Below are positions 21,491 to 42,493 of a DNA stretch of 64,000 nucleotides, in pieces. Both the position numbers and the translations under genes were made by a program. How positions within the stretch are numbered: position 1 is the first letter of the stretch; each line of letters opens with the position of its first letter. Source of the stretch: Labilibaculum manganireducens (GTDB taxonomy: Bacteria; Bacteroidota; Bacteroidia; Bacteroidales; Marinifilaceae); the NCBI RefSeq assembly GCF_002843385.1, contig NZ_MVDE01000007.1, forward strand, positions 62,001-126,000, given 5' to 3'. The notes beneath the pieces were generated by a model that made no database searches, was not told where the DNA came from, and worked only from the letters and a program-made list of their open reading frames with translations.

Positions 21491-21611
21491 TATCTTATTT
21501 TTTTCAAGCTTTTTTACCAAGCTCTATTCATATTATTAAATCAATAGAATACGTGTATCGAATTCTTATTTAAATGACACTTTGGGATCAACTCTTTAAC
21601 CAATAAACCGA

Positions 21612-24411: not shown

Positions 24412-24519
24412 CAAAAATACTTGTATTGAAATAAACTCTCGTAATGCTGTGTTACACAAATTTGTTAGTTTGTTACATCGTTTTCATTCCCGTTACATTT
24501 AATTTCATTTTGGTTACAT
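24412..24519 (-). promoter_or_regulatory. HTCS-type repeat array A and promoter of the symporter-GH10-GH43 operon
   Basis: Four GTTAC-type repeats (plus-strand orientation) start at 24451 (GTTACAC), 24472, 24492 and 24513 (all GTTACAT), at steps of 21, 20 and 21 bp. A -7 box, TATTTTTG on the minus strand, lies at 24412-24419. Its upstream edge is 32 bp from the nearest repeat, placing that repeat around -40 where a directly contacting activator would bind. The same layout recurs at 33740-33847 and 42385-42493. Confidence 0.75.
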
Positions 24520-24985
24520 CCTGTTTGTGGAACTTCTTTAAAGATCAAATTGTATAACTATTCACTGTCTGTTTGCAATATATTATATGCATAAAGTTCT
24601 TCCCGACATCGCTAATTTCAATTGGTACAACAATTGTGATTATTCAGTAAAAAAACCTATCTATCTTTTCCAGACATAGAAAAATCCGGTCTTTATAATT
24701 CCTGATTTTTGCCTGTCCAAGCCCTTTAGGCTTATTATGATGACCTTTAAGTTTATTGAATGTTATGCCTGCGATGTATTATTAATTTAGGCTGACTATC
24801 CGTTTAATAAAACAATTAATCACAATCTTCGTCGTACAGTAATATTCTTCTCCCATTCAAACAATCAATAAAAAGATCAAAAAAAAAGAATACTGAATCC
24901 AATTCGGTTATTGTTCATTTTAATTCCTTCTATCATTCCAGAATCAACTCACTTATTACTTACACTATTGGACACAGATTTATAG
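24520..24985. other. Intergenic region, no gene seen
   Basis: About 465 bp of AT-rich DNA between the array A promoter and the hairpin after the second GH10 gene. No ORF with family features and no repeat related to the arrays was recognised. Confidence 0.5.
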
Positions 24986-25034
24986 AATCCCCTCACAATC
25001 AGCATGTTAAGATACACATTGATTGTGAGGGATT
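24986..25034 (-). terminator. Long stem-loop at the end of the SusCD operon
   Basis: AATCCCCTCACAATCA and TGATTGTGAGGGATT pair over 15 bp with one bulged C around an 18-nt loop, 21 bp past the GH10 stop on the minus strand. No T-run follows, so it may protect the mRNA 3' end or act as a weak terminator. Confidence 0.55.
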
Positions 25035-25055
25035 ACAATGAATTAATATTAGAAA

Positions 25056-27242
25056 TTAGTATTCTAGTTCACCCGAGAAATCTTCACTTACATCGCGTCC
25101 TGCAAGACCATCACACACTCCCTTAAAAGCATGTTTTCGATTGTAATCCGCATCCCAAAGATTAGGTGATTCATCTGGAAGCCAATATTGATGTTCATCC
25201 TCATTATCGGAAACACCCCATATCGTTACTCCATATTGCTGTGCTGCAGGAATGTATTTCATGTACATATCCAAAACATATTGATACATGTCTGCCTGAG
25301 AAGCTTGTTGTGCTACCGTTGGATTCTTAGTTCCCAATCTCACATCCAGCTCCGAGACTTTAATCAATTTTCCACTAGCTGCTAGCTTTTGGAACATTTC
25401 TGCAATCTTATCACGATCGCTATTAATAGATATGTGCATTTGAGTTCCAATACCATCAACGATTGCCCCCTGGCTTTCAATGTACTCTACATAATCGATC
25501 AACCCTTCACATTTGGATATGCTAGACTCGAGATTATAATCATTGATAAAAAGCTTATCTGTTGCATTACCATTTTGGCGAGCTAAATTAAATGCAGTTA
25601 CAGCATAGTCTTTTCCAAGGTATTTTACCCATGAGAAGTAATCACTTTCAGGATCAGTTTTATTCCCATCTCTAAGTGTTCCATCTTCTTTCATTGGTTC
25701 GTTCACTACATCCCATGCATGAATATTGTTTTTGTAATGAGTGACCATTCCGGTAATCCAATCTTCCATTGCATTTCCAATGATTTCCGATTTTTCCTCA
25801 TCTGTTTTTTCAATGATAGTTGGGCCTGAATTACCTCCATCAGTAGCTCCTGTAGTAACAACTACATTATCTACATAATAAGTACCTTCAACACCTCCCA
25901 AATCAAAATTTAAACCTGTTTCTCCACCATCGGCAGTAAATACCCATTCTACATATTGCCATGTTGGAGATGTAGCTTGATCGCTCTGGTAATGTGCTGA
26001 ACCAGTTGTAGAACAACGAACAGAACCTGCAGCTTCAGATTTTATAAAATAAGAAATAGTATATTCTTCGCCTGCAGTTAAGTTTGCAGTAAAATCAGAA
26101 TGAATTTGTGTTTTCCACTGGCCTCCTGCACCACTATTAGCAGCATCAGCAATTATTTTCATAGCACCATTGCCTTCGTAAGCATCAGCAACATCAGCAA
26201 GACTTAATGCTGTATCACCACCATTCCACTTTGCCCATCCATCAATGCCTCCGTCAAATGTTCCATTAGCAATCATATTTACAACTTCAGGCACTGCATC
26301 CTGATCCACTACCTTAATATTATCAACATCAATTAAATATGTAACACCAGGCAAATAACCTAAATCAAAATTCACTTTGAATGTTACACCTGTAAAATCG
26401 TTCACAGTAAATTTCACCTGTTGCCATTGAGAGGTTGTTTCAAAAGCTTCTGTCCAACTACCACCTGTGTTATACCAATCCTTATAAGGATAGTTATTCT
26501 CTAAGCCGCTAAAAGAGATGCGGCCTTTACCTGCCTGATCTGATTTGATATAGAAAGAAACCTCATAAGTATGTCCACTTACAACAGGAATTTCTGGTGT
26601 TATTAGCTGTAGTTCATATGCTTGAGCAGATGAAGAACTTGCAATCATTTTAACCGCTTGTGAACTACTGGATAAACCAGAACCATCCTCAACAGTAATT
26701 CCATCTCCACTATTCCAGGCACCCCAACCTGCGAGCGTTCCATCTTTTAAACCTGATAAATCGAGTGAATTACTCCCTCCGGAAGCAGGGATTACTGTCG
26801 CTGCTATTAAACCATTCAAATAACTTGCATCTTGATTAGCATGCCAAACCAAGGTATGACCAAATACTGAAAGTCCGTTTCCAGTCACTTCTTCAAGAAA
26901 TGAGTCAACCTTTTCAAATTGTATTTCTCCTTTAGCATCAACCATTGGTCCATGTTTCATATCGTATCCAACGGTAATTTCATCAAAGTTTGCATTTGTC
27001 AAATTATGATATGCTTCATTCTCCAGATACTGATTAAGACCGATTCCAACTCCAAGAGTAAATTCAGTATAGGTATTTAAGGCGTCATAACGGCTAATTT
27101 TTTCTACCAATCCCAAAGGCAGTTCCTCTGTTGTAACTTCACCATGTGTTGAATCTTTTTTCCAGTCCATTATTTGATCATCGCATGATGAAAAGACCGT
27201 TAAAACCACAGCGATTATAGGTAATAATTTTATGTATTTCAT
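25056..27242 (-). CDS. GH10 xylanase with two CBM4-like modules inserted in the catalytic domain
   Basis: A 728-residue lipoprotein (lipobox region TVFSSC). The GH10 barrel is interrupted: the first part (about residues 45-145) ends at FGHTLVWHANQDASYLNG. Two beta-sandwich modules follow (about 155-312 and 318-470, each ending in a YxIDVDNIKV or YYVDNVVV strand). The barrel then resumes with the acid/base Glu near residue 515 (WDVVNEPMKEDG) and the nucleophile near 631 (KVSELDVRL). This architecture is known for surface xylanases of gut Bacteroidetes, where the inserted CBM4-type modules grip xylan. It closes the SusC-SusD-surface-protein operon, so it is probably the outer-surface enzyme that makes oligosaccharides for import. 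Confidence 0.92.
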   Translation of the reverse strand: MKYIKLLPIIAVVLTVFSSCDDQIMDWKKDSTHGEVTTEELPLGLVEKISRYDALNTYTEFTLGVGIGLNQYLENEAYHNLTNANFDEITVGYDMKHGPMVDAKGEIQFEKVDSFLEEVTGNGLSVFGHTLVWHANQDASYLNGLIAATVIPASGGSNSLDLSGLKDGTLAGWGAWNSGDGITVEDGSGLSSSSQAVKMIASSSSAQAYELQLITPEIPVVSGHTYEVSFYIKSDQAGKGRISFSGLENNYPYKDWYNTGGSWTEAFETTSQWQQVKFTVNDFTGVTFKVNFDLGYLPGVTYLIDVDNIKVVDQDAVPEVVNMIANGTFDGGIDGWAKWNGGDTALSLADVADAYEGNGAMKIIADAANSGAGGQWKTQIHSDFTANLTAGEEYTISYFIKSEAAGSVRCSTTGSAHYQSDQATSPTWQYVEWVFTADGGETGLNFDLGGVEGTYYVDNVVVTTGATDGGNSGPTIIEKTDEEKSEIIGNAMEDWITGMVTHYKNNIHAWDVVNEPMKEDGTLRDGNKTDPESDYFSWVKYLGKDYAVTAFNLARQNGNATDKLFINDYNLESSISKCEGLIDYVEYIESQGAIVDGIGTQMHISINSDRDKIAEMFQKLAASGKLIKVSELDVRLGTKNPTVAQQASQADMYQYVLDMYMKYIPAAQQYGVTIWGVSDNEDEHQYWLPDESPNLWDADYNRKHAFKGVCDGLAGRDVSEDFSGELEY

Positions 27243-27324
27243 TTTTCTTTGTTTTAGAATAACACGATTTATCTAAGCATTATCTCAACTTGACAAATTC
27301 ATGGTTATTATCGCTTAAATATGT

Positions 27325-28710
27325 TTATTCTTCATCTTCAGGAAAATCACTATAAGTTGGTGTTTCCAAAGAAACGATTCTCCAATTATCAGTATAAACA
27401 CTAACAGATGTAGCCACGGAAGTGAATTCTGTTTCGCTGTCACTATCATTGCCTGTAATATTCGCTAGAGTAAAATCTGTGTTTTCGAAGTAAAATCCAA
27501 AGTTCTTATAATTGGCTGTTTCCCGATAAGTCAATATATCTTCAAAAGTGAAACCGTCTTCTGAATAATCATAAATCATATTCAGAGGAATGGTTGCAGT
27601 AGTCCAACCCGTTGTTTGAAAAGCTTCCGCCTCGCCATTAACGATCCATGGTACGTAATTGTAACAGGCACCAGCCCATTCACCTCCATTAAATCCATTT
27701 ACTAAACATATTTTTAAAAATCCTGTCTCGGACCATGCTTCAGGTACATAAATATCAAACTGCAATGCCACTTCGGAAAGAGGTGTTGTTGCCGGAATAT
27801 ATGGCGTTAACTGACCACGCCAGTCATCTGTGCCATTTCCTGCTGTCCATACTTCTGAACAACGAGGTGTTGCTGGATCAAATGATGCTATACGGGAAGG
27901 ACGATGCGGCACATAGATTCCCTGAGAAATATTTTCGGTACCTATAGAAGCAGATTCCAAATCCTCATCCATAATCATACTTGTTGCGCTCCCCCAAAAA
28001 CCATGCGTTCCAATTCCATCAAAATCAAGTATTACCCCTTTTTTGAAATTGAAATAGGCTGGAGAATAAGCACCTCCATTAGAACATTCAATCAGTAAAG
28101 AACCACCTTCATCTGAAACGCCCTCAGGAACAATTACTGTAAAAAATTCTCCTCCAACATCAGAAGTAATTCCTTCTGTTACTTCAACATTACCAGGAAA
28201 AACAACTTTACTGACTTCAACTAAACCAAAACCATTTACAGTAATAGTTTCACCTGCTAATGGTAAAGTATGCGAGATACTTGTTATAGATGGTGCTGCT
28301 GAGCGAATTTCAAATGAAAACGTAGCTTCATTGCCATCCTTTGTCATTCGAATGATATTTCGAACATCGGCTTCGGCTTCAACTGTAGGTGTATTTTTGG
28401 AAACACTAACTAACATTGAATTATCCGAAACATATACTGGATTAAAATAAGATGAAAGTCCATTAATGTAAACTTTCCTTAGCCCCATAAAACCCGAACC
28501 TTCAATTCGAATCATTTGTCCCAAACGGGCAAATGTTACTTCTCTGTCAGGTACCGATGAATTCACATCTTCTAAATATATTTTACTTATCGTAATTGGG
28601 CCAGTACTCAAATCCTCATCATCACAAGCTGTAAACAACATTGCAACAAGCATTATTCCAAGGAATGCGACAGATGTCCAACGATTTTTATTTAAATTAT
28701 TTTTCTTCAT
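27325..28710 (-). CDS. Surface glycan-binding lipoprotein (SusE-position, IPT/TIG domains)
   Basis: A 461-residue lipoprotein with lipobox [10 protein letters not shown]. Two tandem IPT/TIG-like immunoglobulin domains (about residues 40-140 and 142-225; [15 protein letters not shown] and [16 protein letters not shown]) precede a C-terminal domain of about 230 residues resembling the glycan-binding domain of SGBP-B proteins. It has no catalytic motif. It lies directly after SusD, the usual place for such an auxiliary binding protein. The ATG at 28710 gives a standard signal peptide; the frame upstream to a TTG at 28734 is ignored. Binding of xylan is inferred from context. Confidence 0.85.
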
Positions 28711-28753
28711 GTTAATTGATATTTTAAATTCCAATTCACTTACTGTGAGAATA

Positions 28754-30385
28754 TTAGAATAAATCAGTTATTTTTTCTTCAGTAAACTCATACGATACAG
28801 GTGATGCTTTCAACAATGGATTTTGCACAACTTCTGATTCTGGATAAGGTAACAGAAAGATCGTTTCATCCACATTACCAATAGAGCGAGAAGATCTAGT
28901 ACGGGTTTCATCTTCAGTGGCAGTATTTATTGCAGTATCATAAGTAAAAGGAACAATAGTGCCACGATCCTGACTTGTAATATAATTGACTACCTCCTGT
29001 TGTTGGTAATACGATCGGCGAACCAAATCATACCAGTACTGACCTTCCATGCATAATTCAACTCTTCTTTCATGAATAATATCTTCATAAGTAAGACTGC
29101 TTTTATCTTCAAGTCCTGCTCGGGAACGAAGCTTATTTATATATAGTAAAGCTGTTGCATCAGAAGTGCTTGCAGTATTACCTAAAACAGCCTCTGTGTA
29201 GTTCAAATAAACTTCAGCCAAACGTAACATATTAGTATTTAGAGCAGAGTTTTGTTTTGAAATTTTCGGGTTATCTTTTGTAGAGCCTACTACACCCTTT
29301 TTTACATTTAAAGCTTCGTGTGATTTTTCATAGGTATATCCACCATTAGCTTTACTAATTTCAGGATAAAAGTCACCATATCCCATCCAGGTAGCTTTAC
29401 GACGAGCATCTGCAGATTCATACTCCTTTAGTACATCATAGGAAGCTCTTGTCCAGTATCCCCATGCCGCATCATCGCCGGTAATTTCAGATCCTGCTGC
29501 AAAATAAGCTTGCTGCGTATTGGTCACACCATAGTCGCCATTTGGAACCCATTGCAATGCAAACATCGACTCTGAGTTGTTGTTATTTTCTATCATGAAT
29601 AAATCAGCATAATCATCCATTAATTCATAAGGACCTTTATCCATAACCATTTCAGCAGCTTTTTTAGCTAAATCAAGATATTCCTGATTACGTATTCCAC
29701 TGTTTGGATCCTCACTTAAGCCAGAATATGATAAATAAATACGAGATAGCATCCCAAATGCGCTGTATTTTGTTACACGACCACCTTGAGCAGCCTGCTC
29801 AGGTAAATATTTAGCCGCATATTCTAAATCCCGCATTACAAATTCATACACATCTGTTATCGGATTGGTGTTTACAATTGGATTATTTACCAATGTTCCG
29901 GGATCTTCAGAAATGATTACATCTCCCCATAACGAAGCCATATACCAGTAAGCTGTTCCCCTCATAAAGCGTGCTTCCGCGATATATTGTTTTTGAATAT
30001 CAGCATCAACATTACTTCCTTTTATACCAATAATTACTTTATTGGATTGTTGAATTACATTGTAAAATGATTGCCATGCCGAAACCAAAGGTCCGGTCAG
30101 ACCCGTTTCCGTTAAATCACTAAACGGATAAACGTAGTCAGAGTATGGAGCGTATAAATTGTAAGAACGTCCATCGCCCAATCCGTAATAAAATTTGTCA
30201 TTGAATTCGAACCAAACTTTGTTGTAAAGTGGTGCCGTTGCTGCTTTAAAATCCTCTTCTGACTGATAGAAATTCTCACTGGTGATTTGATCTTGAGGCT
30301 GTACCTCTAAAAAATCACTGCAACCGGTCCAAATAATGGGGAAAACCATCAACAGAACCGTATATATAATATATTTTGTTTTCAT
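28754..30385 (-). CDS. susD: SusD/RagB-family nutrient-binding lipoprotein
   Basis: A 543-residue outer-membrane lipoprotein (signal [22 protein letters not shown], then [27 protein letters not shown], the standard SusD N-terminus). The C-terminal half has the RagB/SusD pattern with [26 protein letters not shown] and [22 protein letters not shown]. SusD lids the SusC channel and captures oligosaccharides. It follows susC by 59 bp. The ATG at 30385 was chosen over upstream in-frame starts because it gives the signal peptide. The substrate is xylan-derived by context. Confidence 0.95.
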
Positions 30386-30444
30386 CTGTATCATATTTTT
30401 ATTACTTATGCTAGCTATTCGTTTCATCTTCAGAACATTTTCAT

Positions 30445-33400
30445 TTAAAATGAAACATTTACCCCAAATGTATAGATCTGAGGGGAAGGATAACGAGCAT
30501 TATCAATACCTGTTAAAAGTGCATCCTGATTGGTTGATCCAATTTCGGGATCATAACCAGAATATTTTGTGAAAGTATATACGTTTTGTAAGTTGGTATA
30601 AACTTTAAGATTTTGAATCCCTAATCGAGAAACTAGTTTACGTGGAAGGTTATAACCAAAAGAAATACTTTGAATTCTTAAATAAGAACCGTCCTCCACA
30701 AACTTATTACTGTAACGATAGTTAGAAGTTGAAGAAGCTGAAGAAGCACCTATTCGTGGCATATTTGAAGCTCCTCCTGCGATTTGTACGTTACGGTAAT
30801 CATTTGGTCCGTTTGGATCGATTAACGACAATTGCGCATACCCCAATGCAGATTTCAACAAGTTAGTATTTGCACGTGGATTTTCTAACCAGCGACGTTG
30901 GTAGTTTACTACTTCATTTCCATATGAACCAGATAGAAAGATATTCAAATCAAATCCTTTATAAGAAAAGGAATTACCAATTCCGAAGGTAAAATCAGCC
31001 TCAGGATTCCCAATATAACCTCGGTCTTCCTCGTTGATTACACCATCCTTATTTATATCCTCAAAAATATAATCTCCAATCCAAACACTATTTTCACCAA
31101 TATCCATTCCTTCTGGTAAGGCTGTTGGTACTACATCTCCGGCACTGTTCTTGTAATAAAAATCAGTAGCCTTCTCGAAACGTCCAATCACTTTATATCC
31201 GTAGTATTGACCAATTGCTTTGCCAACTGCAGTTCGGGTAACTATTGTATTATCAGATCCCTGTTGAATATTTCTGTTTAATATTCCGGTTTCAGTATTG
31301 AGAGACAACACTTTATTTCTATTAACGGAAAAAACAAAATTAGAGCGCCAAAGGAAATCTCCTTTATCTATATTAACGGTATTCAATGTTAATTCAATTC
31401 CCTTATTTTCAAGAGAACCAACATTTACCCATGGTGCTGATGTTGCTCCTACCCCTGATGTACCAACGTAAGCAGGTAACGGCAACTGCAATAATAAATT
31501 CTTCGTTTTCTTATAGTAAATATCAGCAATAAACTCAATGCGATTGTTAAAAAGATTTAGGTCAACTCCTGCATTACTTGAATAAGTAGTTTCCCATTGC
31601 AGATCTTCATTTGCAGTATTAGCTGCAAGTAATCCAGTTCCCCAATTTGTAGCTGATGCTGCATAAGTTGAGGTATAAGCATAATTAGGTACGTTTTGAT
31701 TACCCACTGTACCCCATCCCAAACGAAGTTTCAAATTATTGATAATATCATTATCTTTCAGGAAATTTTCATTGGATACTTTCCAGGCTATTGCCGCCGA
31801 AGGAAACCATCCCCATCGGTTATCTTTATGAAATTTTGATGAACCATCGTAACGCAGAGTTGCTGTTAATAAATATTTATCATCAAAAGAGTAGAACATT
31901 CTACCAAAATAGGAACTAATTGAGCTAACACCACTACCGTTTGAGTTTTTGGCTGTAGTAGCGTCACCGGCATTTAAATCTGTCGCTCCATTGGTTAAAT
32001 ATCCTGAACGGTAACCGTAAAGATTTTCCCAATGAGATTCCTGCATTTCCTGTCCTAACATCATTTTGATATTATGAATACCAAATTCACAATTGTAAGT
32101 CAGAATATTTTTCCAATTCCAATACTTATTGTATGACTTTGTTCGTGATCCTTCGCGTACTTCGTTAACAAGAGCTCCAAAAGTATAGGATGGATTAAAT
32201 GTATAAGCATTGCCAAAACCATAATCCAATGAATATTCTGTTTTAAATGTAAGCCCTTTTATCAGTGTCGCTTCTGCAAAAGTGGAGGCTCTTATTCCAG
32301 CCTTTTCATTTCGGTTGTCTTTGATCATAGCCAAACCAACTGGATTGTTCTGAACGTACTCGTCAGTATCCGGTCCATCAAAAGATCCATCTGCATTACG
32401 AACTGCTACATTAGGAGTTTGCTTAAGAGCTGTTAGAATTAATGATGCGTCAGAAACAGTCGTTTTTTGTTTAGAATTACTAAATGCAAAATTCACCCCA
32501 ACTTTCAAAAAATCTTTCACCTGAGAATCGAAAGTTCCCCTTAGGTTAAATCGCTCGAATGCTGAACCAATAGCAATACCATCTTGATCAAGATAGCCTA
32601 CTCCCATGGCATAAGTACTCTTATCTGTACCTCCGGAAACTGACAAGTTATGACTTTGCATCATTGCATGAGTAAACATCTCATCTTGCCAATCAGTACC
32701 TTCCCCTAACAGATCAGGACGAACAAAACTATTATCACGCATTACAATACCCATGTCTGCACGAGTATTTTTATGTATCGCATACTCTTGCAAATTAAGT
32801 AAATCAAGCTTTTTAGGCATCTCCTGCCATCCCATATAACCATCGTAAGTTATAGTAGCTTCACCTTTCTTTCCACGCTTGGTGGTAATAATAATAACTC
32901 CATTTGCAGCTCTAGATCCGTAAATCGCAGTTGCCGAAGCATCTTTCAAAACATCCATAGAAACAATATCTGATGGATTTATTGAAGAAAGAGCATTTTC
33001 GGTTCCAGAACCTGTAGCCCCATCAATAATTATCCCATCAATAACAAAAATTGGTTCATTTGACCCATTAAGAGAACTGATACCGCGAATGCGAATAGAA
33101 GAACCGGCACCCGGCGCTCCACTGTTTTGCTGCACCTGTACTCCTGCTGCACGCCCTTGTAAAACCTGATCGATAGACGTGGTAACCGATTGATTAATTG
33201 CTTCGCTTGAAACAGAAACCACTGATCCTGTTAAGTCGGAACGCTTCATTTGTCCATAACCAACTATAACGACCTCATCAAGAGATTGTACATCCTCAAC
33301 CATTACAACATTAATGGTGTTTTTATTATTCACTTCAATCGTTTGTGTATTGAAACCAATAAAATTAAAAGTAAGCTTGGCATTTGAAGGTACATCCATA

Positions 33401-33600
33401 CTGTAAACACCATCAATATTAGTAATAGTACCCTGGGTTGTACCTAAAATAACAATATTAACACCAGGTAAGGATTCTCCTCCTGAGTCAGTTACTTTAC
33501 CAGTTACTCTTATCGTCTGGGCTAATGTTACCAAAGGCACAGCGATTAAAAGGAGCAATAGTAATATCCCCTTTTTTGTTCGAACATAGCATTTTTTCAT
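30445..33600 (-). CDS. susC: SusC/RagA-family TonB-dependent transporter
   Basis: A 1051-residue outer-membrane importer. In order: signal peptide (ends VTLAQ); a carboxypeptidase-like regulatory domain (about residues 28-105; VTGKVTDSGGESLPGVNIVILGTTQGT); a SusC-type segment LDEVVIVGYGQMKRSDLTGSV; the plug (to about 235, with LQGRAAGVQV, IRIRGISSLNG and ASATAIYGSRAANGVIIITTKRG); and a barrel ending in the aromatic VNVSF. It should move xylan oligosaccharides into the periplasm with SusD. First gene of its operon, with array B upstream. Confidence 0.97.
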   Translation of the reverse strand: MKKCYVRTKKGILLLLLLIAVPLVTLAQTIRVTGKVTDSGGESLPGVNIVILGTTQGTITNIDGVYSMDVPSNAKLTFNFIGFNTQTIEVNNKNTINVVMVEDVQSLDEVVIVGYGQMKRSDLTGSVVSVSSEAINQSVTTSIDQVLQGRAAGVQVQQNSGAPGAGSSIRIRGISSLNGSNEPIFVIDGIIIDGATGSGTENALSSINPSDIVSMDVLKDASATAIYGSRAANGVIIITTKRGKKGEATITYDGYMGWQEMPKKLDLLNLQEYAIHKNTRADMGIVMRDNSFVRPDLLGEGTDWQDEMFTHAMMQSHNLSVSGGTDKSTYAMGVGYLDQDGIAIGSAFERFNLRGTFDSQVKDFLKVGVNFAFSNSKQKTTVSDASLILTALKQTPNVAVRNADGSFDGPDTDEYVQNNPVGLAMIKDNRNEKAGIRASTFAEATLIKGLTFKTEYSLDYGFGNAYTFNPSYTFGALVNEVREGSRTKSYNKYWNWKNILTYNCEFGIHNIKMMLGQEMQESHWENLYGYRSGYLTNGATDLNAGDATTAKNSNGSGVSSISSYFGRMFYSFDDKYLLTATLRYDGSSKFHKDNRWGWFPSAAIAWKVSNENFLKDNDIINNLKLRLGWGTVGNQNVPNYAYTSTYAASATNWGTGLLAANTANEDLQWETTYSSNAGVDLNLFNNRIEFIADIYYKKTKNLLLQLPLPAYVGTSGVGATSAPWVNVGSLENKGIELTLNTVNIDKGDFLWRSNFVFSVNRNKVLSLNTETGILNRNIQQGSDNTIVTRTAVGKAIGQYYGYKVIGRFEKATDFYYKNSAGDVVPTALPEGMDIGENSVWIGDYIFEDINKDGVINEEDRGYIGNPEADFTFGIGNSFSYKGFDLNIFLSGSYGNEVVNYQRRWLENPRANTNLLKSALGYAQLSLIDPNGPNDYRNVQIAGGASNMPRIGASSASSTSNYRYSNKFVEDGSYLRIQSISFGYNLPRKLVSRLGIQNLKVYTNLQNVYTFTKYSGYDPEIGSTNQDALLTGIDNARYPSPQIYTFGVNVSF

Positions 33601-33739: not shown

Positions 33740-33847
33740 TAAAAATACCTCTATTGAAATAAACTAACATGCCTGCATGTTACCAATAATTGTTTGTTTG
33801 TTACATCGTTTGCGCACCCGTTACATTTTATTTTATTTTGGTTACAT
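33740..33847 (-). promoter_or_regulatory. HTCS-type repeat array B and promoter of the SusCD operon
   Basis: Repeats start at 33779 (GTTACCA), 33800, 33820 and 33841 (GTTACAT), at steps of 21, 20 and 21 bp, exactly as in array A. A -7-like TATTTTTA on the minus strand (33740-33747) is again 32 bp from the nearest repeat. The block TATTGAAATAAACT between box and repeats is shared with array A. The array lies 179 bp upstream of the susC start. Confidence 0.75.
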
Positions 33848-34153
33848 TGACGGCTTAATTGCTTGTATTTAACCATTTTCAAGCCACCTAAAAACATTTT
33901 CAACATTTTATATTTATCTTTTAGTAAAGAACTTCGGATCAAGCTAAGCTTCATTGAATATGAATATAAATTCTCATAATTACTCGGAAAATGAAATACA
34001 GATATTGAAGGCTAAATTGAATTTCACTCTAACAAAATAATTCCAACATATAAAGATCAGACAATCGTACACTACGCATTTAAACCGATTCTTTACTTCC
34101 GAAATACAGCCCGCTAAATGATGTCAAAAAATCCCTTAACTCGATTCGTTTTT
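33848..34153. other. Intergenic region, no gene seen
   Basis: About 306 bp between array B and the GH2 stop. It is AT-rich, without a clear terminator hairpin, ORF or RNA gene. Confidence 0.45.
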
Positions 34154-36907
34154 CTATTTTACCTGAACAGTCGTTGCAATTTTCCGGATACCTTCTGATT
34201 CTGCAATCACTTTAATTGTTCCGGCCTCTCCTTGCTTTGCCTTAACAATTACCAATGCCAGTCCGTTAAATGCTTTGCGTTCATGAGAAGAAAATATTTC
34301 CAGATCGGATGGATCTCCATTATCTGTGGCAACAATCTCTCCCGGGCCTTCAATGCTGAATTTTATCAGATTATTTGAACGAGGCACCACAATTCCTTCC
34401 TGATCGCACACACTAACTGTAATAAAGGATAAATCTTTTCCATCACCTGTAATATAATTTCTATCCGCAGAAAGTTTTAATTGGCTTGCCTTTCCTGTTG
34501 TTTTCACGATCTCTTCAGCCCACTTTTCTCCATTTTTGTAAGCAATAGCTTTCAACTCTCCCGGAGTATATTTCACTTCGTCCCAACGAAAACGGTATTC
34601 TCCATCTATTTTTTTCTGATGTCCAAGCGATTTTCCGTTTAAAAACAATTCTACCTCATCACCTGAAGTTACAACATGTACCGGAGTGAGCTTTCCTACT
34701 CTTTCGGGCCAGTTCCAGTGCGGGAAAATATGTGCCATTGGTAAATCAGGGAGCCATCGTGCCTGGTAAAGGTAAAACCTGTCTTTTTTAAAGCCTGCCA
34801 AATCGATAATTCCTGAATACGAACTGCGTGAAAGATAATATGGTGTTGGTTCGCCAATATAATCCCAGCCCGACCAAACAAATTCACCGGCAACATAGGG
34901 GTGTTTATCCTGAGTAGCGAATACCTTATCGGCCGACGAGCCAAACGGAGCAGTATACAATTCGTAGGAACTTACATATTTCGTATTAGGATCACCACCA
35001 GAACCATCCATAGCAGGTGCACTGCTTCCTGCAAATACCGGAAACAAATAAGTTCCCCGGGTACTTAATGCTGATGCCGTTTCACTACTCACAATAAGCT
35101 TACCGGGATATTTCTCATGGAAATCTGGATAAAGCGGATGTGTATGAATTCCTTTCATCGCAACATAAGCGGGTGCATTCCGAATCCCTTCTCCCTGATA
35201 ATTTAAACTGATTACATCCGGCACTTCAGAAAACGGCATATCTGGTTTTGCAAAATTCATAGATGCCGTTGCAGGTCGTGAAGGATCTTCCTCTTTTACA
35301 ATATCGCGTAGACGTTTTGAAATTGAAGCGCCTTCTTTATCTGTATATTGTTCTCCTACTTCGTTGCCATAACTCCACATGATAACTGAAGGGCAATTTC
35401 TGTCTCTGCGCACAAATGCGCGTGTATCCTGCTCATACCAGTCCGGAAAAATCAGATGAAAATCAAGCGGTGTTTTCTTTCTTTCCCATACATCAAAAAT
35501 CTCATCAACCACCAAAAATCCCATTCTATCAGTCAATTCAAGTAATTCAGGTGCCGGAGGATTATGCGACAAACGAATAGCATTACAACCCAATTCATGC
35601 AATATTTCCAACTGGCGCTCAGCTGCACGTTTGTTAAAAGCAGCTCCCAAAGCTCCTAAATCGTGATGCTGATTTACACCTTTAATTCTTATTGCTTCTC
35701 CATTCACCACAATACCCTTCTCTGGATCAAACTCCATGGAGCGAATACCAAATCGGGTTTCATAAGTATCGATAATCTTTCCCTCTTTTTGTATTGAACT
35801 TACCGCCAAATACAAATTTGGAATTTGTGTTGGAAGTGGTCCCCATAAAGCTGGTTTGTCAATTACTACAGAGTTTTTAATTTCAGTTTTTCCCAAAGCG
35901 GAAACTATAACTTTTTCCGGAGAAAAACGGGCAACAGGATCACCTGTTTGAACACCATTTTTGTCCAAAGCATAAACAGTTGTATTCACTTCAATATGGG
36001 CTTCAGACTTGCTGTCATTATCAACAGTTACAACTAAATCTACTTCAGCTGATTTTTCGGAAACATTGTGAGTTGTAACAACTGTTCCCCACTGACCGAC
36101 ATGAACCGGATTTGTTTTTGTTAGCCAAACACTACGGTACAATCCTCCACCAGGATACCATCGGGCAGAGTTCGGTGGATTATCAATTCGGATTGCCAAT
36201 TGGTTCACTCCACCGGGAATAATGTAAGGCGTTAAATCAACCTGCCAGGAATTATAACCGTAAGGCCATCCTCCCACCAAATTTCCATTTAACCATACAA
36301 TTGCATATGACATAGCACCTTCTATTTCCAGAAAAATTGATTTTCCGGCATCATCAGATAAAATATCAAGTTTCCTGCGATACCATGCTACTCCATGACT
36401 CGCCAAACGTCCCATTCCTCCTCCAACTTCAGACTCCCAACCTTCCTGAAATGGTTCTTCAATACCCCAATCATGAGGTAAATTCAATTTTCTCCAGGAA
36501 CTATCATCAAAATCAGCCTGAACAAAAGGAAAATCACTTCCAGGATTTCCTTCCGGACGAATGAGACGCTTTTCAGAATCCTTAATAAAATGATTTCCTG
36601 TTGGTAAAACCCAAGCTTTCAGTACAGTTTGCTTTGCATCAACACGAACCGCTTCTGTTGGTTTCGAATCTGCAACCTTATCATCCTTACTATCGTTCAC
36701 TTCAGGACGCACATCATAAATAAGACTATCTGCATCTGCCTGCGAAGCATACTTAAAAAAATACCAATCGCTGTTGATTAAAATCCGTTCACGGGAATTT
36801 GTTTCGCTATTTTTTGTTTTCGAACATGACAGGAAAATTGAACATCCCAAAAGCACAAAAAGGCTCCTTGCTATCCAATTCTTAAATGATCTTATATTTG
36901 CTCTCAT
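34154..36907 (-). CDS. GH2 glycosidase (beta-galactosidase-like lipoprotein)
   Basis: A 917-residue lipoprotein (SIFLSCSK). Domains in order: a jelly-roll sugar-binding domain (about 120-280; NLPHDWGIEEPF, GGGLYRSVWL), an immunoglobulin-like domain, then the TIM barrel (about 400-690) with the acid/base Glu near 516 (IMWSYGNEVGE) and the nucleophile near 609 (VSSETASALS). Two further C-terminal beta domains of the DUF4982 / invasin-like type follow (VEKLTP-like start VGKLTPVHVVTSGDEVELFLNGKSLG). The family cleaves beta-galactosides and related sugars. In this operon, with GH67 and GH115, it probably removes a beta-linked side-chain sugar from glucuronoxylan, but specificity is not proven. Confidence 0.88.
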   Translation of the reverse strand: MRANIRSFKNWIARSLFVLLGCSIFLSCSKTKNSETNSRERILINSDWYFFKYASQADADSLIYDVRPEVNDSKDDKVADSKPTEAVRVDAKQTVLKAWVLPTGNHFIKDSEKRLIRPEGNPGSDFPFVQADFDDSSWRKLNLPHDWGIEEPFQEGWESEVGGGMGRLASHGVAWYRRKLDILSDDAGKSIFLEIEGAMSYAIVWLNGNLVGGWPYGYNSWQVDLTPYIIPGGVNQLAIRIDNPPNSARWYPGGGLYRSVWLTKTNPVHVGQWGTVVTTHNVSEKSAEVDLVVTVDNDSKSEAHIEVNTTVYALDKNGVQTGDPVARFSPEKVIVSALGKTEIKNSVVIDKPALWGPLPTQIPNLYLAVSSIQKEGKIIDTYETRFGIRSMEFDPEKGIVVNGEAIRIKGVNQHHDLGALGAAFNKRAAERQLEILHELGCNAIRLSHNPPAPELLELTDRMGFLVVDEIFDVWERKKTPLDFHLIFPDWYEQDTRAFVRRDRNCPSVIMWSYGNEVGEQYTDKEGASISKRLRDIVKEEDPSRPATASMNFAKPDMPFSEVPDVISLNYQGEGIRNAPAYVAMKGIHTHPLYPDFHEKYPGKLIVSSETASALSTRGTYLFPVFAGSSAPAMDGSGGDPNTKYVSSYELYTAPFGSSADKVFATQDKHPYVAGEFVWSGWDYIGEPTPYYLSRSSYSGIIDLAGFKKDRFYLYQARWLPDLPMAHIFPHWNWPERVGKLTPVHVVTSGDEVELFLNGKSLGHQKKIDGEYRFRWDEVKYTPGELKAIAYKNGEKWAEEIVKTTGKASQLKLSADRNYITGDGKDLSFITVSVCDQEGIVVPRSNNLIKFSIEGPGEIVATDNGDPSDLEIFSSHERKAFNGLALVIVKAKQGEAGTIKVIAESEGIRKIATTVQVK

Positions 36908-37023
36908 ACTCTTTTGTTTTTATGTTGATTGTTTAACTCTTACTATCAGCATCTCGTTTTTACCAATAAAATCTTTTCTGTAAAAGGATATGCTCCAACA
37001 AATACTACATTAGTTAGTATTCA

Positions 37024-39912
37024 TTAGTACAATTTACTCTCAGAAGGTCCCAAATAAGATGGTTTGAGTCCACCATTATCAATCATCAATTTTTGAAGCA
37101 CAATTCCCGGATCAATCAACCAATATTTCACAGTATGGGTTTCTGTATTATTCAGTTTGTGTTTTGACTTTCTTACTAATTTATTATCGGATACCGCTGT
37201 ACACCACCATTCTGCGTAATTCCAATCCTTACCTGCACAACCTTCATGCAGGTTAATAATTTGTGGTTCTTCATCATCTACAGATACCGCATATTTTAAT
37301 CCGTCTTTATTTTTAAAATCCTGCGTTGGTGCCAAACTCATGAAAAGAGTAATGGAATCATTTTTAGGTTTGTTAATCAATGTGAATGTATATTCCAAAT
37401 GTGAATTGTCCTTACTAAACTCCTGATAACCTTTATTTACCGGCAATGATGTTACACCTCCTTTTGTATTCCCCAAACCATTTATCACTTCCCAATCAAA
37501 TCCCTGACTGGTACTGCTTGAATTAAAGTCTGCAGCTTCAATGCTTACCACTCCATCGTTCTCAATAAATCCTTGTAACTTCTTTTGATTCAGATCAATT
37601 TTATCTGCAATAACGCCTAGTTCAATCACCTGACCATTAGCAGATACAGAAATTGTTCCTGCTGAATTACCGACAGGAAGCTGATCCCAGTTAACAGAAA
37701 CAAAATGTCGCTCTTCCTCTTTCAAATTATTTTCACATTCACTGATTTTCATCCACTTAGGAGTTTCAATTTTATAATCTATTGCTCTTTTTCCAGTATT
37801 GAAAAGCTCAAAATAAATTTCCTGCTGATTGATATTATCGAAGATTGAAAGATTCGCAGTAGAATCATGCTTTGTCCAAATTTTATCTTTCCCTTCAATC
37901 TTTATACAAAGCTGTCCTACTTCCGGTACTTTCAAATAGGTTACCTGAGGCATCGTATTACTGTCCGGCTGATTCCAATATGTATAACCAATATGCTGCT
38001 GTGCCATCATATGATTCCACTTACCATCTGCTAATTCCGTATGAAACTCAAGAGTAAGCAACGAATCACGCTTAAAAAGTTCAACTACTTTATCTGCCAT
38101 TAAGTTAGTTGCAACTCTTTTTTCTTTAGCATACTGCTTATTTTTAGCCACATACCAATACATTTCATTCAGATTGGCACAAATTCTTACTGGAAAATAA
38201 ACCAACTGATAAAAGGAATCTTTTTGATCCTCATCTATGATATCATAAAGACTTTTAGCTCTTTGTGCTAAACGGTTGTAATCCTCAACTACTTTTTCAA
38301 ATTCCCGGTAATGAATCAAACTATAGGTATGATTGTCCAATAATTCGGGTGTGCGACGCCTGTTATATTTTGTATATAAATCCAGCAGTTCAGCAATTTC
38401 TTTAGCATATTTTCCAGAGAATTGTTCTGATGCCCAATTCGTTGTATATTCTGATAATTCATTTACAGTAACCGACTCAGGATTCCATGCATAGTCGAAG
38501 AAAAATGAAATAGGTAACTCCATTGGTTTCAAGTCACCAACATTCACAATCCAAATGCGATCAACTCCGTGTTCATAGGTTAATCTCAATTGCTCCCAAA
38601 CCCGTGGTAAGGAATTCGTATTGAGCCACTTGTAATTACGCGGACCTCCAACATAATCAAAATGATAATACATACCGTAACCTCCCGAACGTTCAGCAGA
38701 TTCTGGTTCCGGCAATACCCTAACATTTCCCCAGTTGTCATCACAAAACAATAGTGTAACATCATCAGGTACTTTCATTCCCTTGTCATAATATTCCTGA
38801 ACTTCTTTGTATAAAGCCCAAACCTGAGGTGTTTCATTAGCAGGCTTCTGAGTTACCTCTTCTATAATTTTTCGTTGATTGGCAACGATATCTTCCAGTA
38901 GTTCGATGTTGGTTCCTTCTTCCATGGCTTCGTCGCCATCTCCTCTCATAGCCAGAGTAACAACACTTTCCTTATTCCCCATTCGTTCAATTCCCTCTTT
39001 CCAGAAAGCATCCAACTGATTTTTATTTTTTTTATAATTCCATTTTTTTCCACCGTATGGTTTCCATTCTGCATGTGCTCTCATCATCGGTTCATGGTGC
39101 GATGTGCTCATCACAATCCCATATTCATCTGCCAATTTAGCATTTAAAGGATCATCACTATTAAAACCAGCCCACCACATAGCAGGCCACAAGAAGTTGC
39201 CTTTTAAGCGTAAAATCAATTCGAAAACATGCTCATACATTTGATGATTGAATCCGCCGTAATTCTCAACCGCCCATCTTCCCAAAGCTGGTTCCTCATC
39301 GTTTAAAAAAATACCGCGATATTTAACTTTAGGTTCACCCAAATTATATCTACCTGGTTTAATAAATACTTCGGAATGCTTTTTTACAGGTACATCAGCC
39401 CAAAAATACCAAGGAGAAACTCCCATTTTACGACTAATATCGAACATGCCGTAAATTGTACCTCTTTTATCACTCCCGGCAATCACCAAGGCTCTATCAA
39501 CATTTGGTAAAGGATTCTCAACTACTTCAATTAAACTATTATCCCATTTCCCATTTACATCATCTGCGATTAACTTACCAGACTTAATTAATCCGTCTAT
39601 CAATTGACTTTTTCCAATTGTTCCTATAATGATAACAGTACCCTGAGGATTTTTTCCAATATGCAAAGGACTAGTTACTCCTGTTACTTTTCCGATGTCT
39701 TTTTGAAATAATTCAGCGACTTTGATTACACCTGAATAGTCTTTATCATCAATATATATGGGAGTGCCTTTTTGAGATTTTACTATCGGGAAATTGTTCT
39801 CATTTACTGAAAAAGACACAAGTTTATTCTCACTTAATTCCTTCCCAGTATCATTTTTACAAGAGATTATACTGAACAAGACAATCAACTCTAACACAAT
39901 AAATCTTATCAT
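37024..39912 (-). CDS. GH115 xylan alpha-1,2-glucuronidase
   Basis: A 962-residue lipoprotein when started at the ATG at 39912 (MIRFIVLELIVLFSIISC); in-frame starts further upstream add a tail that would bury the signal peptide. GH115 hallmarks are strong: GVSPWYFWADVPVKK, YRGIFLNDEEPALGRWAVENYGGFNHQMYEHVFELILRLKGNFLWPAMW, STSHHEPMMRAHAEW and VTLAMRGDGDEAM. A C-terminal beta-sandwich (GFDWEVINGLGNTKGGVTSLP) is present. GH115 removes (4-O-methyl)glucuronic acid from internal xylose residues of polymeric or long xylan. It lies between GH2 and GH67 in one operon. Confidence 0.95.
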   Translation of the reverse strand: MIRFIVLELIVLFSIISCKNDTGKELSENKLVSFSVNENNFPIVKSQKGTPIYIDDKDYSGVIKVAELFQKDIGKVTGVTSPLHIGKNPQGTVIIIGTIGKSQLIDGLIKSGKLIADDVNGKWDNSLIEVVENPLPNVDRALVIAGSDKRGTIYGMFDISRKMGVSPWYFWADVPVKKHSEVFIKPGRYNLGEPKVKYRGIFLNDEEPALGRWAVENYGGFNHQMYEHVFELILRLKGNFLWPAMWWAGFNSDDPLNAKLADEYGIVMSTSHHEPMMRAHAEWKPYGGKKWNYKKNKNQLDAFWKEGIERMGNKESVVTLAMRGDGDEAMEEGTNIELLEDIVANQRKIIEEVTQKPANETPQVWALYKEVQEYYDKGMKVPDDVTLLFCDDNWGNVRVLPEPESAERSGGYGMYYHFDYVGGPRNYKWLNTNSLPRVWEQLRLTYEHGVDRIWIVNVGDLKPMELPISFFFDYAWNPESVTVNELSEYTTNWASEQFSGKYAKEIAELLDLYTKYNRRRTPELLDNHTYSLIHYREFEKVVEDYNRLAQRAKSLYDIIDEDQKDSFYQLVYFPVRICANLNEMYWYVAKNKQYAKEKRVATNLMADKVVELFKRDSLLTLEFHTELADGKWNHMMAQQHIGYTYWNQPDSNTMPQVTYLKVPEVGQLCIKIEGKDKIWTKHDSTANLSIFDNINQQEIYFELFNTGKRAIDYKIETPKWMKISECENNLKEEERHFVSVNWDQLPVGNSAGTISVSANGQVIELGVIADKIDLNQKKLQGFIENDGVVSIEAADFNSSSTSQGFDWEVINGLGNTKGGVTSLPVNKGYQEFSKDNSHLEYTFTLINKPKNDSITLFMSLAPTQDFKNKDGLKYAVSVDDEEPQIINLHEGCAGKDWNYAEWWCTAVSDNKLVRKSKHKLNNTETHTVKYWLIDPGIVLQKLMIDNGGLKPSYLGPSESKLY

Positions 39913-40083
39913 ATTGATTTTATTTGTTTTTATCATTAAACTGAAACACATCACCTCGGGCTGCATAAATTGGCTGTTTTCACTCACAATCTCAGCTGAA
40001 GTTCAATAAAACTTAAATTTCTAAAGTCCTTCTCCAGTCATTTTAAAAAAAACATTTATCATCCATTTGGTTATTGTTAATCA

Positions 40084-42228
40084 TTAATTATGGTGAGTCT
40101 TTAAAAATTTAAGTTCCTTAAGATCTTCCAATTTAGATTTAGGTTGATCCAGTTGAGAAGGAATTGGTCTGTGAGAGAAAGTTTGAAAATAAAGCAAACA
40201 CGCATCCCTCCACCAGATAGCTTCCTTTAATTGTATTGCTAATTTATTTTGCACATCATTAAACCTATTTTTATCTACTTTTGATTGAAGAGAATTCCAG
40301 GTGCATTGAAAATATTTTACCTGTTCAACTCCCATGCTGTATCTGTAACACAATTCTGACCATAAATCTCTGCCATTAATCAATTCATAATTCCATGGTA
40401 AATGATGAAACCACAGCAAAAGTTCTTCCGGGCAAAGTGCAGGATCGTTATAAACTGAAAGCAAAGGTTCTGCATACTGACTGACAGCATTACTTCCGCT
40501 TGATGATCGGTTAAATCCAACACCTATGCTATCTGCCTTATGGTAATAAGTTGGCAACCAGTCTGGTCTTGCTCCGGAAATCTCACACCAGGGTTCCGGA
40601 CCATAATGATGGCCCCACCCCATTAAATGATGTAATCCCAGTGGTGTCATATAATTTACGGTGGCTTCTCTCGATTCCATCATGACACCTGACATTTGAT
40701 TCAAAAAATCCTGATCGTGTGAAAAGGTTTGCATTAACCACTCCTTTGCAATTTTCCGGGCAGATAATTGATGATTCCAGGCCAAACGACCAAAAGCATA
40801 CCAATTGGCCTGAGCAAAATGATGTCCGCACCAATTACTGTCTAAACCGATATTAGCTACTCCGGCAACAGCGGTTATGGAGTCATCGTAAACAGATCCG
40901 TCAGTAATCCGGGATACTGTTGAGTTTCTTCCATTTGTGTAGGTATCTGAGTTTAAAAACTCCTTAAACAGTGTTCCCAAATAAACCAAGTGATCCGAAA
41001 AACCCAAATATTCTTGTGTTATCTGTAATTCCGGCATCAGGGTAGTGTGCTGCATTGCACCAAACAAAGGACTGAATGGCTCTCTGGGCTGAAAGTCAAC
41101 AGGACCATTTTTCACTTGAAGGATTACATTCTTGCGAAATTTTCCGTCGAGAGGTTTAAATTCATTGTAAGCCTGCTTAGCGCGATCGTTTCCGTTAGGA
41201 TTGTAAACAAAAGCACGCCACATTATAATTCCACCGTAAGATTCTAAAACATCGGCGAGCATATTCGCTCCATCAGCATGAGTACGCCCAAAATCCTGAG
41301 GTCCCGGCAGTCCTTCCGAATTTGCCTTCACAACAAAACCTCCAAAATCAGGAATCAGAGAATAGATTTGTTTTGCTTTATCCTGCCACCAGATTCTTAC
41401 ATCCTTATTAAGAGGATCTGCTGTTGTAAGCCCACCCAGAACAGAAGGAGAAGAAAAATTTATGGACAAATAAACCTTAATCCCATAAGGACGAAAAATA
41501 TCAGCCAACGTCTTTACTTTTTTAAGATATTCAATACTTAAAACAGCCGGATTTGCATTTACATTATTCAAAACGGTTCCATTAATGCCAATGGAAGCAT
41601 TTGCCCGTGCATATTCTATATATCCGGGGCTTATTTTTTGAGGCAAATCCTTCCATTGCCAAATTGAATGACCAGCGTATCCTCTTTCAACCGTGCCGTC
41701 TAAATTATCCCAATGATTCAGAATTCTTCGTTGGTATGATGGTACTTCTACAATGTCAAAATTTGCTTTATGTGTATTATCAGTTTGTAAGTATCTTAAA
41801 TAATGATAGGTACCATATAATGCTCCTAAATCTGTATTTGCAATAATAATGGTCACATTATTGCCTGTTGTTCTTATGATATAACCGTCATTCCCTAATA
41901 CACTCAACTCTTCTTTCTTAAAGTAAGATGATAAATCTTTTTGGCTGGATGTGCCAACGCATAAACCATTTGAATTCAATCGGCTTACATCCTTCACCTC
42001 CCTATTATACAATTTATTAAGACCACTTTTGAGTTCTTTGTGAATGATGGTAAAAGTTGGAGATGATTGTGGTATCCAAATAAAAGATGGGCAGGCAAAC
42101 GACGCGCTTTCAATCGTTTCCATATGTGTAAACCACAATTCTGAACCATCCAATTTATTTTGACCTGAAGCCCATTGCGTTCCAGTAATAAAATACAAAA
42201 ATATGATCAAGAAATATTTAGTAAGCAT
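40084..42228 (-). CDS. GH67 alpha-glucuronidase
   Basis: A 714-residue exported enzyme; the ATG at 42228 gives the signal MLTKYFLIIFLYFITGTQWASGQ, while the frame start at 42267 is a TTG. GH67 blocks are evident: LGALYGTYHYLRYLQT, LNHWDNLDGTVERGYAGHSIWQW, YARANASIGINGTVLNNVNA, FVVKANSEGLPGPQDFGRTHADGANMLADVL (with Glu near residue 305 and the following Asp), and HWYAF-type WCGHHFAQANWYAFGRLAWN. GH67 cleaves glucuronic acid from the non-reducing terminal xylose of short aldouronates, complementing GH115. First gene of the GH67-GH115-GH2 operon, preceded by array C. Confidence 0.96.
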   Translation of the reverse strand: MLTKYFLIIFLYFITGTQWASGQNKLDGSELWFTHMETIESASFACPSFIWIPQSSPTFTIIHKELKSGLNKLYNREVKDVSRLNSNGLCVGTSSQKDLSSYFKKEELSVLGNDGYIIRTTGNNVTIIIANTDLGALYGTYHYLRYLQTDNTHKANFDIVEVPSYQRRILNHWDNLDGTVERGYAGHSIWQWKDLPQKISPGYIEYARANASIGINGTVLNNVNANPAVLSIEYLKKVKTLADIFRPYGIKVYLSINFSSPSVLGGLTTADPLNKDVRIWWQDKAKQIYSLIPDFGGFVVKANSEGLPGPQDFGRTHADGANMLADVLESYGGIIMWRAFVYNPNGNDRAKQAYNEFKPLDGKFRKNVILQVKNGPVDFQPREPFSPLFGAMQHTTLMPELQITQEYLGFSDHLVYLGTLFKEFLNSDTYTNGRNSTVSRITDGSVYDDSITAVAGVANIGLDSNWCGHHFAQANWYAFGRLAWNHQLSARKIAKEWLMQTFSHDQDFLNQMSGVMMESREATVNYMTPLGLHHLMGWGHHYGPEPWCEISGARPDWLPTYYHKADSIGVGFNRSSSGSNAVSQYAEPLLSVYNDPALCPEELLLWFHHLPWNYELINGRDLWSELCYRYSMGVEQVKYFQCTWNSLQSKVDKNRFNDVQNKLAIQLKEAIWWRDACLLYFQTFSHRPIPSQLDQPKSKLEDLKELKFLKTHHN

Positions 42229-42384
42229 ATGTATCGGTTTTGGCTTTATTAAAATATATTTTCGCAATTGCTAAAAACATATTAGGGTTAACAAATCAGA
42301 TTCTTTATTTTTATCAAATTCACTTTTTTACCTCAGCCATAGAATATGGCATTAAGCATTACAAGTGTTAATTTCTTTGGACTA

Positions 42385-42493
42385 CAAGATACATATAGTC
42401 TCTTCTTGAACTAAAACACTCTTGTTACCAACTATTTTCTGTTAGTTACTGCGAATTACATATTTGTTACATTATCTTTCCTATTGGTTACAT
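42385..42493 (-). promoter_or_regulatory. HTCS-type repeat array C and promoter of the GH67-GH115-GH2 operon
   Basis: Repeats start at 42424 (GTTACCA), 42445 (GTTACTG), 42466 and 42487 (GTTACAT), all at 21-bp steps. They have the same strand orientation as arrays A and B, which points to the minus-strand GH67 gene. A -7-like TATCTTG (minus strand, about 42385-42391) is 33 bp from the nearest repeat. The array ends 75 bp before the divergent HTCS gene, so it may also affect HTCS expression. Confidence 0.7.

Follow-up and report, generated by a model that had tools for sequence, protein, structure and literature searches.

Arrays A, B and C and the genes behind them

A 64,000-nucleotide stretch of the Labilibaculum manganireducens genome, here called the window, carries a xylan locus in which three promoters are preceded by arrays of four short direct repeats and in which a hybrid two-component system (HTCS) protein is encoded. 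The HTCS gene (42569-46645, plus strand) codes, in Pfam order, for a Reg_prop propeller, Y_Y_Y, HisKA, HATPase_c, receiver and AraC-type HTH_18 domains; the propeller, kinase, ATPase, receiver and AraC-type helix-turn-helix of the HTCS class are thus present in one chain. This protein is presumed to be the binder of the arrays.

The arrays are assigned to the minus strand. Array A (24451-24519) has its copies at 24451, 24472, 24492 and 24513, array B (33779-33847) at 33779, 33800, 33820 and 33841, and array C (42424-42493) at 42424, 42445, 42466 and 42487. GTTAC is found, exact to the base, at all twelve positions given in an earlier note on this DNA, and the steps listed there (21-20-21 bp in A and B, 21-21-21 bp in C) match the sequence. 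The unit had been described as GTTACAT. GTTAC is present in four of four copies of each array, but the complete GTTACAT in only three of four copies in A, three of four in B and two of four in C. The promoter-proximal copy is the variant one in all three arrays (GTTACAC in A, GTTACCA in B and in C), and the second copy of array C reads GTTACTG. Copy 1 lies 141 (A), 179 (B) and 157 bp (C) from the open reading frame starts at 24310, 33600 and 42267, in agreement with the proposed 140-180 bp; the start at 42267 is a TTG call, and the real GH67 start may be further in. The arrays are alike in orientation, as the note had said, with GTTAC on the plus strand. As the minus strand carries the regulated genes, their promoters read ATGTAAC.

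TAnnTTTG is the -7 consensus of Bacteroidota. A box of this kind, TATTTTTG (24412-24419, minus strand), matches it at 6 of 6 positions 31 bp from copy 1 of array A; TATTTTTA (33740-33747, minus strand) matches at 5 of 6, 31 bp from copy 1 of array B, and the weak box TATCTTGT (42384-42391, minus strand) at 4 of 6, 32 bp from copy 1 of array C. The three-copy pattern GTTAC-N14-17-GTTAC-N14-17-GTTAC has six overlapping matches in the window, all inside arrays A-C, and none in 100 dinucleotide shuffles of the window (mean 0.00). Direct repeats about 21 bp apart upstream of operons of polysaccharide utilization loci (PULs) characterize HTCS operators; the steps are 20-21 bp in the window and 20-22 bp in most relatives.

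All genes behind the arrays are on the minus strand and were assigned by Pfam. Array A is followed by the genes for an MFS_2 sugar transporter (22841-24310) and a GH10 xylanase-family protein (21612-22745), and then by those for GH43, an SASA-type esterase and GH43 with GH43_C2 (16844-21520), which are presumed from spacing and strand to share the operon of MFS_2. The first gene behind array B codes for a SusC-like TonB-dependent receptor (30445-33600), and a SusD-like protein (28754-30427), a surface glycan-binding protein (SGBP_B_XBD; 27325-28734) and a GH10 xylanase-family protein with CBM4_9 modules (25056-27242) belong to the same group. Array C lies between the divergent, complete HTCS gene and the gene for GH67 (40084-42267), which is followed by GH115 (37024-39987) and, as the last of the group, by a GH2-family enzyme (34154-36907) placed in the putative operon by strand and spacing. 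The regulon of the HTCS in its own genome would consist of these three operons, namely MFS/GH10/GH43, SusCD/SGBP/GH10 and GH67/GH115/GH2.

Distribution of the array beside HTCS orthologues

The own genome (5,319,962 bases in 97 contigs) was scanned with the three-copy pattern, for which the earlier note had expected hits only before xylan genes. Arrays A-C account for six of the nine matches and the other three lie in GTTACTT-type tandem repeats. Random occurrence, or a similar density elsewhere, which the note had named as speaking against its reading, was not seen: besides the empty shuffles, the pattern read backwards has no match in the whole genome. The two-copy pattern gave 13 matches (eight in the arrays and five lone pairs), and its backward form 12.

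An orthologue of the HTCS (89-100% identity) is present in six of nine genomes of the genus, and the arrays are found in those same six; the remaining three have neither the HTCS nor these arrays. In alignments across the genus (five genomes for A, three for B and six for C), all four copies stand as conserved islands, the sole core change being one base in copy 1 of array B in genome G031. The flanks diverge between species directly past copy 4 in array A and a few bases past copy 4 in array C. G033 has genes for SusC and SusD after the one for GH67, lacks a separate B promoter and keeps arrays A and C; G032 and G034 give the same picture by array content alone. Two genomes without the HTCS, G027 and G030, gave other pattern matches that were judged by eye to be different repeats. 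Repeats of the GTTACGGAAG type with steps of about 21 bp, matched by the same pattern, occur in G027, G030, G049 and G050 and are perhaps in-frame coding repeats.

Loci were then collected at the level of the order by the HTCS protein only. Of 393 genomes covered, 28 besides the own genome gave matches, 31 in all, with 33-54% identity. L161 and L180, two loci found via the array, are not part of the counts of 29 and 30 loci given here or of the motif-free scan. A four-copy GTTACAT array with a score of at least 38 lies no more than 1.5 kb from the HTCS in 13 of 29 order-level loci. By the same measure it is absent from all 41 rows of other HTCS loci (40 distinct loci, as L096 is the same locus as L105), where the best score was 36 (Fisher p 1.4e-6). 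When no motif was given, 12 of 58 pieces flanking xylan-type HTCSs scored at least 12 at steps of 20-22 bp (six of the 12 being Labilibaculum), and 0-2 of the 58 did so at seven other step windows. Over the 31 loci, taken to up to 20 kb, 23 matches were obtained, representing 15 distinct arrays in 12 loci; the reversed sequence of these loci gave none, and four other step windows gave 0, 1, 2 and 0. Many arrays match on both strands because the core is nearly palindromic, and the HTCS is then the gene on the opposite side. Relatives of SusC, GH43, GH115 and the esterase are among the neighbours of the order-level arrays, and the genes behind arrays in other genomes include GH10, GH43, GH115, MFS, esterase and SusC.

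A second regulator gene in the window must be considered here, as an NrtR-family (XylR/AraR-like) protein encoded at 15997-16635 might bind the arrays in place of the HTCS. Its gene adjoins the operon of array A and has an orthologue (93-95%) in the same six genus genomes, the core TGTWACA is nearly palindromic, and Bacteroides AraR is described as using 21-bp tandem semipalindromic sites (PMC4666351; this and the papers below are cited from parts of their text). The tandem AraR sites are, however, 3 bp or 42 nt apart in that text, without continuous 21-bp steps, and GTTACAT occurs in it as part of a shuffled control oligonucleotide; the same seven letters stand once in PMC7531118. In the 31 order-level loci (up to 20 kb each, with arrays in 12), no NrtR homologue (E<=1e-10) is encoded, although one could sit elsewhere in those genomes. 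The arrays also adjoin this clade of HTCSs and not other HTCSs. Binding by the NrtR-family protein is therefore considered very unlikely.

The Bacteroides set comprised 99 genomes of the genus to which the B. timonensis genome belongs. The three-copy pattern is present in 38 of them and the backward pattern in four; an HTCS match was obtained in 44. The pattern was found in 29 of the 44 genomes with the HTCS and in 9 of the 55 without it (Fisher p 9e-7). The locus was looked at in 22 of the 29 genomes having both, and 19 of these 22 are phased with a -7 box. Among 47 rows of pattern loci from this set and related ones, with duplicates and loci known before counted in, 37 have the box at one of five allowed positions. 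A stronger comparison was made with 30 loci chosen solely by their HTCS protein, which has 37-45% identity to the HTCS of the window; they come from 30 of the 44 genomes and are not fully independent, L387-L390 being near-identical. Of these 30 loci, 27 have an array anchored on the -7 box, always in a flank of the HTCS, and the number that pass by the unanchored score is again 27. None of the 41 rows of other HTCSs passes either criterion, the unanchored score or the -7-anchored scan; reversed sequence gave no match in the Bacteroides loci and one in the other loci. The motif thus goes with the DNA-binding domain of its HTCS: the array stands beside 13 of 29 and 27 of 30 xylan-type loci and 0 of 41 rows of other HTCSs, and the helix signature described below agrees with this.

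Scanning of all species with the pattern gave at least 117 stretches, 80 of which were listed as loci; 29 of the 80, chosen by hand, were inspected. The listed matches include B. oleiciplenus, B. timonensis, B. luti, Parabacteroides, Tannerella, Phocaeicola and others, and also many tandem repeats in unrelated phyla. A -7 box (at least 5 of 6) stands at 31/32 or 52/53 bp in 12 of the 29 inspected loci, and 11 of these 12 are from Bacteroidales. The exception, L191 (Chryseobacterium), has a weak box and no xylan relative was seen at it; the other 17 loci are mostly tandem repeats. Neighbours in the pattern-found loci include GH10, GH43 together with GH115 and MFS, SusC relatives (60% identity) and HTCS relatives (40-44% identity), and in B. 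timonensis the array is followed by genes for GH3, GH8 and an aldose epimerase.

Since period-21 GTTACAT tandem repeats occur in many genomes and make up a large share of the listed all-species matches, the arrays could be short tandem duplications (minisatellites) without a regulatory role. Near-identical whole units are not seen in them: the spacers differ between copies, which agree only in the cores and in the AAA boxes described below, and the design is common to three separate promoters. Conservation ends near the array edge. Arrays A and B have the -7 box at 31/32 bp, and the inspected simple tandem repeats mostly lack such phasing. A minisatellite origin without function is thus extremely unlikely.

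Array anatomy, promoter phasing and the DNA-binding domain

The anatomy of the arrays was tabulated for 16 arrays with 64 copies, L292 and L295 having been dropped as weak and untypical. In promoter direction the unit is ATGTWAC. Over the 64 copies, the six positions of GTWACA hardly vary, being occupied by G in 57, T in 62, T or A in 62, A in 55, C in 63 and A in 57. The spacers between copies 1 and 2 and between copies 3 and 4 contain AAA (TTT on the opposite strand); counted from the proximal core's G it lies at 11-13 bases, and each of its bases is present in 10-16 of the 16 arrays. Between copies 2 and 3 the AAA is displaced by 1-2 bases. No AAA box was found beyond copy 4 or before copy 1 in the 16 arrays. 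The GTTACAT cores, which in their array had looked like the complete cis-code, are therefore real but are only a part of it, to which the T or A at the third base, the variable last T, the AAA boxes and the distance to the -7 box have to be added.

AAA boxes recurring about 21 bp apart between the cores could also mean that the arrays are phased A-tract (curvature) elements, or sites for a nucleoid protein, that aid any xylan promoter. The cores are sequence-specific, however, and the arrays are confined to one HTCS clade and stand at three places in the genome, which makes this highly unlikely.

In 13 of the 16 arrays, copy 1 has a TAnnTTTG-like box (at least 5 of 6) at a distance of 31 or 32 bp, the chance of such a box being about 1.2% per position. 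This count leans towards the operator reading, as arrays matching on two strands were assigned a strand by the downstream gene and the box; copy 1 of L269 was itself placed by the box, and without L269 the count is 12 of 15. A scan anchored on the -7 box, with strand and steps left free, gave 46 matches over 61 loci as against one in reversed sequence. Of these 46 matches, 40 have a distal step of 21 bp; the middle step measures 21 bp in 23 matches and 20 bp in 20, the proximal step 21 bp in 31 and 22 bp in 10. The distal pair is nearly rigid. A stricter rule, with exactly 21 bp in both pairs and variation confined to the middle step, agreed with 13 of 15 distinct arrays but was weaker over the 46 matches and was given up.

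Core information, calculated at seven positions over the 16 arrays, is 5.7 bits for copy 1 and 8.4, 9.5 and 8.4 bits for copies 2-4. This bears on whether a single HTCS dimer might occupy two adjacent copies, the other two being spare, auxiliary or alternative sites. Copy 1 is degenerate by these values and barely recognisable in several Bacteroides promoters (ATTTCAG, GATTCAG), and known HTCS motifs are two-site direct repeats (PMC3878776). Yet copies 2, 3 and 4 are of similar strength across genera, and none of the four copies is lost from any of the three promoter types in the aligned genus genomes, with one core base changed in one genome. Occupation by one dimer is thus rather unlikely, though it deserves to be kept in mind.

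The recognition helix of the HTCS of the window is SRVHMHRKLKELTNQSARD. HTCSs of the array type have a common first recognition helix, SRVH-(M/L)-(H/Y)-RKL, with SRGH in L263. All 17 array-type HTCSs compared have the His of this helix, as against 5% of 41 others, and all 17 have a Gln at position 42 of the alignment, as against 0% of the others; the 17 include L161 and L180, to which the array itself had led. With the helix classes assigned by eye and L266 excluded (protein truncated), none of five orthologues of the SRSQ type has the array, as against 13 of 23 with SRVH or SRGH (Fisher p 0.04).

The receiver domain differs as well. An S/CHIP motif is present in the receiver of most Bacteroides HTCSs, and deviations from it may loosen an inhibitory lock (PMC11253607). 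The HTCS of the window (42569-46645) has NHIP in place of S/CHIP. The 28 loci in which NHIP was read all encode HTCSs of the xylan type. Among the loci of other HTCSs (L075-L097), the motif could be matched in 18, none of which has NHIP; many loci gave no match in this comparison.

Proposed operator and its relation to other HTCS systems

At araI1-I2, E. coli AraC binds direct-repeat half-sites that are 21 bp apart beside the promoter, each being read by two helix-turn-helix motifs. AraC differs in having two half-sites and in being a soluble ligand-binding activator; the position just upstream of the -33 region is alike. Two-site operators with direct repeats about 21 bp apart were predicted for 16 HTCSs of B. 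thetaiotaomicron (Ravcheev 2013, PMC3878776). The arrays resemble those sites in that direct repeats averaging 21 bp stand before PUL operons and would place AraC-type HTCS dimers on one DNA face, and the same paper states that similar DNA-binding domains have similar motifs. They differ from its two conserved sites with a non-conserved spacer in having four sites, AAA boxes and fixed phasing; with four copies and conserved AAA/TTT in the spacers, they represent a variant form and not the exact family. In the part of that paper at hand, neither a xylan HTCS motif nor a -7 spacing was found.

Intact membrane-bound HTCSs, BT0366 and BT1754, were seen by chromatin immunoprecipitation sequencing to bind DNA at the PULs they control (PMC3404733); these are arabinan and fructan systems, and the words "motif" and "direct repeat" do not occur in the available text. 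BT4124 and BT4663 bind promoter DNA in electrophoretic mobility shift assays (PMC11253607). For xylan, knock-out of BXY_29350 in B. xylanisolvens lowers the xylan PUL and also GH67, GH10, a transporter and GH2 at a second locus (Despres 2016, PMC4855328). These second-locus genes are of the same kinds as those of the xylan locus in the window. No operator for BXY_29350 was found in the part of the paper seen, and its authors leave direct or indirect action open. The earlier note knew of no description of this exact array, and none was found in the titles and abstract beginnings of the open-licence papers that searches listed; supplements, RegPrecise tables and subscription papers (e.g. on Prevotella XynR) lay outside this search. 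The two-site 21-bp principle itself was already predicted (PMC3878776). As far as the literature was searched, the novelty lies in the build from four sites, in the phasing and in the xylan motif with its reach across Bacteroidales.

The clade-specific recurrence, the common recognition helix, the phasing with the -7 box and the AAA boxes together make it very probable that each array is an operator for the xylan-type HTCS encoded nearby and serves as an upstream activator array. The reading of the earlier note, with an operator of the divergent HTCS, copies on a single DNA face and a xylan regulon defined by the arrays, is thus supported by comparison, from six of nine genus genomes to the order-level and Bacteroides loci set against the 41 rows of other HTCSs. 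Its picture of a dimerised HTCS may have to be widened, as four copies suggest two dimers and not one; the array is probably filled by two dimers on four sites.

In the mechanism proposed, the periplasmic propeller would sense a xylo-oligosaccharide, and autophosphorylation with transfer to the receiver would free the AraC-type DNA-binding domains. Each of these domains might place one helix-turn-helix on a core and the other on the adjacent AAA. The AAA boxes lie about one helical turn from the cores, and two adjacent helix-turn-helix motifs reading a core and a box one turn away fit the AraC family. Two HTCS dimers would fill the four sites on one DNA face, just upstream of the -33 region, and the bound HTCSs would activate RNA polymerase by contact. 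The proximal copy, weakest and nearest to the polymerase, may be filled cooperatively.

Several observations weigh against the operator assignment. The box of array C matches TAnnTTTG at only 4 of 6 positions, and with the anchor shifted to 26/27 and 36/37 bp there were 17 matches in the two windows together (against 46). An array scoring at least 38 within 1.5 kb is lacking in 16 of 29 order-level HTCS loci, 10 of them with an SRVH-type helix, and the strict three-copy pattern is missing in 15 of the 44 Bacteroides-set genomes with the HTCS. Conversely, two of the nine pattern genomes without an HTCS at the chosen threshold (G541, G543) carry phased arrays, and behind some phased pattern-found arrays (L136, L160, L166, L186, L191) either a weak SusC relative was all that was seen or xylan relatives were not seen. 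Within the genus the NrtR gene is distributed in the same way, so the co-occurrence of HTCS and array there could mirror the whole locus.

A broader proposal is put forward tentatively, as somewhat short of an even chance. In the xylan HTCS clade, two membrane-tethered dimers may be obliged to fill a four-site operator welded to the promoter, under one grammar (21 bp in the distal pair, 20-22 bp in the other steps and a -7 box 31/32 bp away) that joins separate xylan loci from Labilibaculum to gut Bacteroides; the NHIP lock may accompany this cooperative mode. If true, this would explain the cross-control of PUL 43 and rPUL 70 reported in B. xylanisolvens. Among the glycan sensors of Bacteroides, HTCSs form a major class (PMC11253607), and few of their operators are known. 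A concrete operator is predicted here for the xylan HTCS clade. From its grammar of cores, AAA boxes and -7 distance, regulons can be predicted in many genomes, separate xylan loci of gut Bacteroides among them, and it raises the mechanistic question of whether HTCS dimers act in pairs.

The flanks of other HTCSs were scanned in the same way. Without a given motif, four copies scored at least 12 at steps of 20-22 bp in 4 of 64 flanks, as against 0-1 at seven other windows; the three-copy scan gave 2 of 64 at steps of 20-22 bp and 3 of 64 at steps of 23-25 bp, and the two-copy scan gave 0 of 64 in any window. The -7-anchored scan gave 3 of 64 at a score of at least 10 versus 0-1, and it picked the wrong strand or box in some xylan-type loci. 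That four-copy arrays are general for HTCSs is not supported; only L111 and perhaps L105 look real.

Both of these candidates lie in the own genome (contigs C10 and C19), between another HTCS and the next operon: four ATCCCC-type copies with steps of 22-20-22 bp at about 5537-5607 of L111, and four TTCCC-like copies at about 5322-5390 of L105. CGAGTA-like and CCAATAG/GCAATAG-like units, repeated more than four times at steps of about 20-22 bp, are found in intergenic DNA of the own genome at about 13249-13380 of L106 and 18554-18690 of L115 (contigs C2 and C14). In the window itself, a minus-strand set at 46724-53136 resembles, by its translations, an L-rhamnose catabolic operon (aldolase, alcohol dehydrogenase, kinase, isomerase and transporter).

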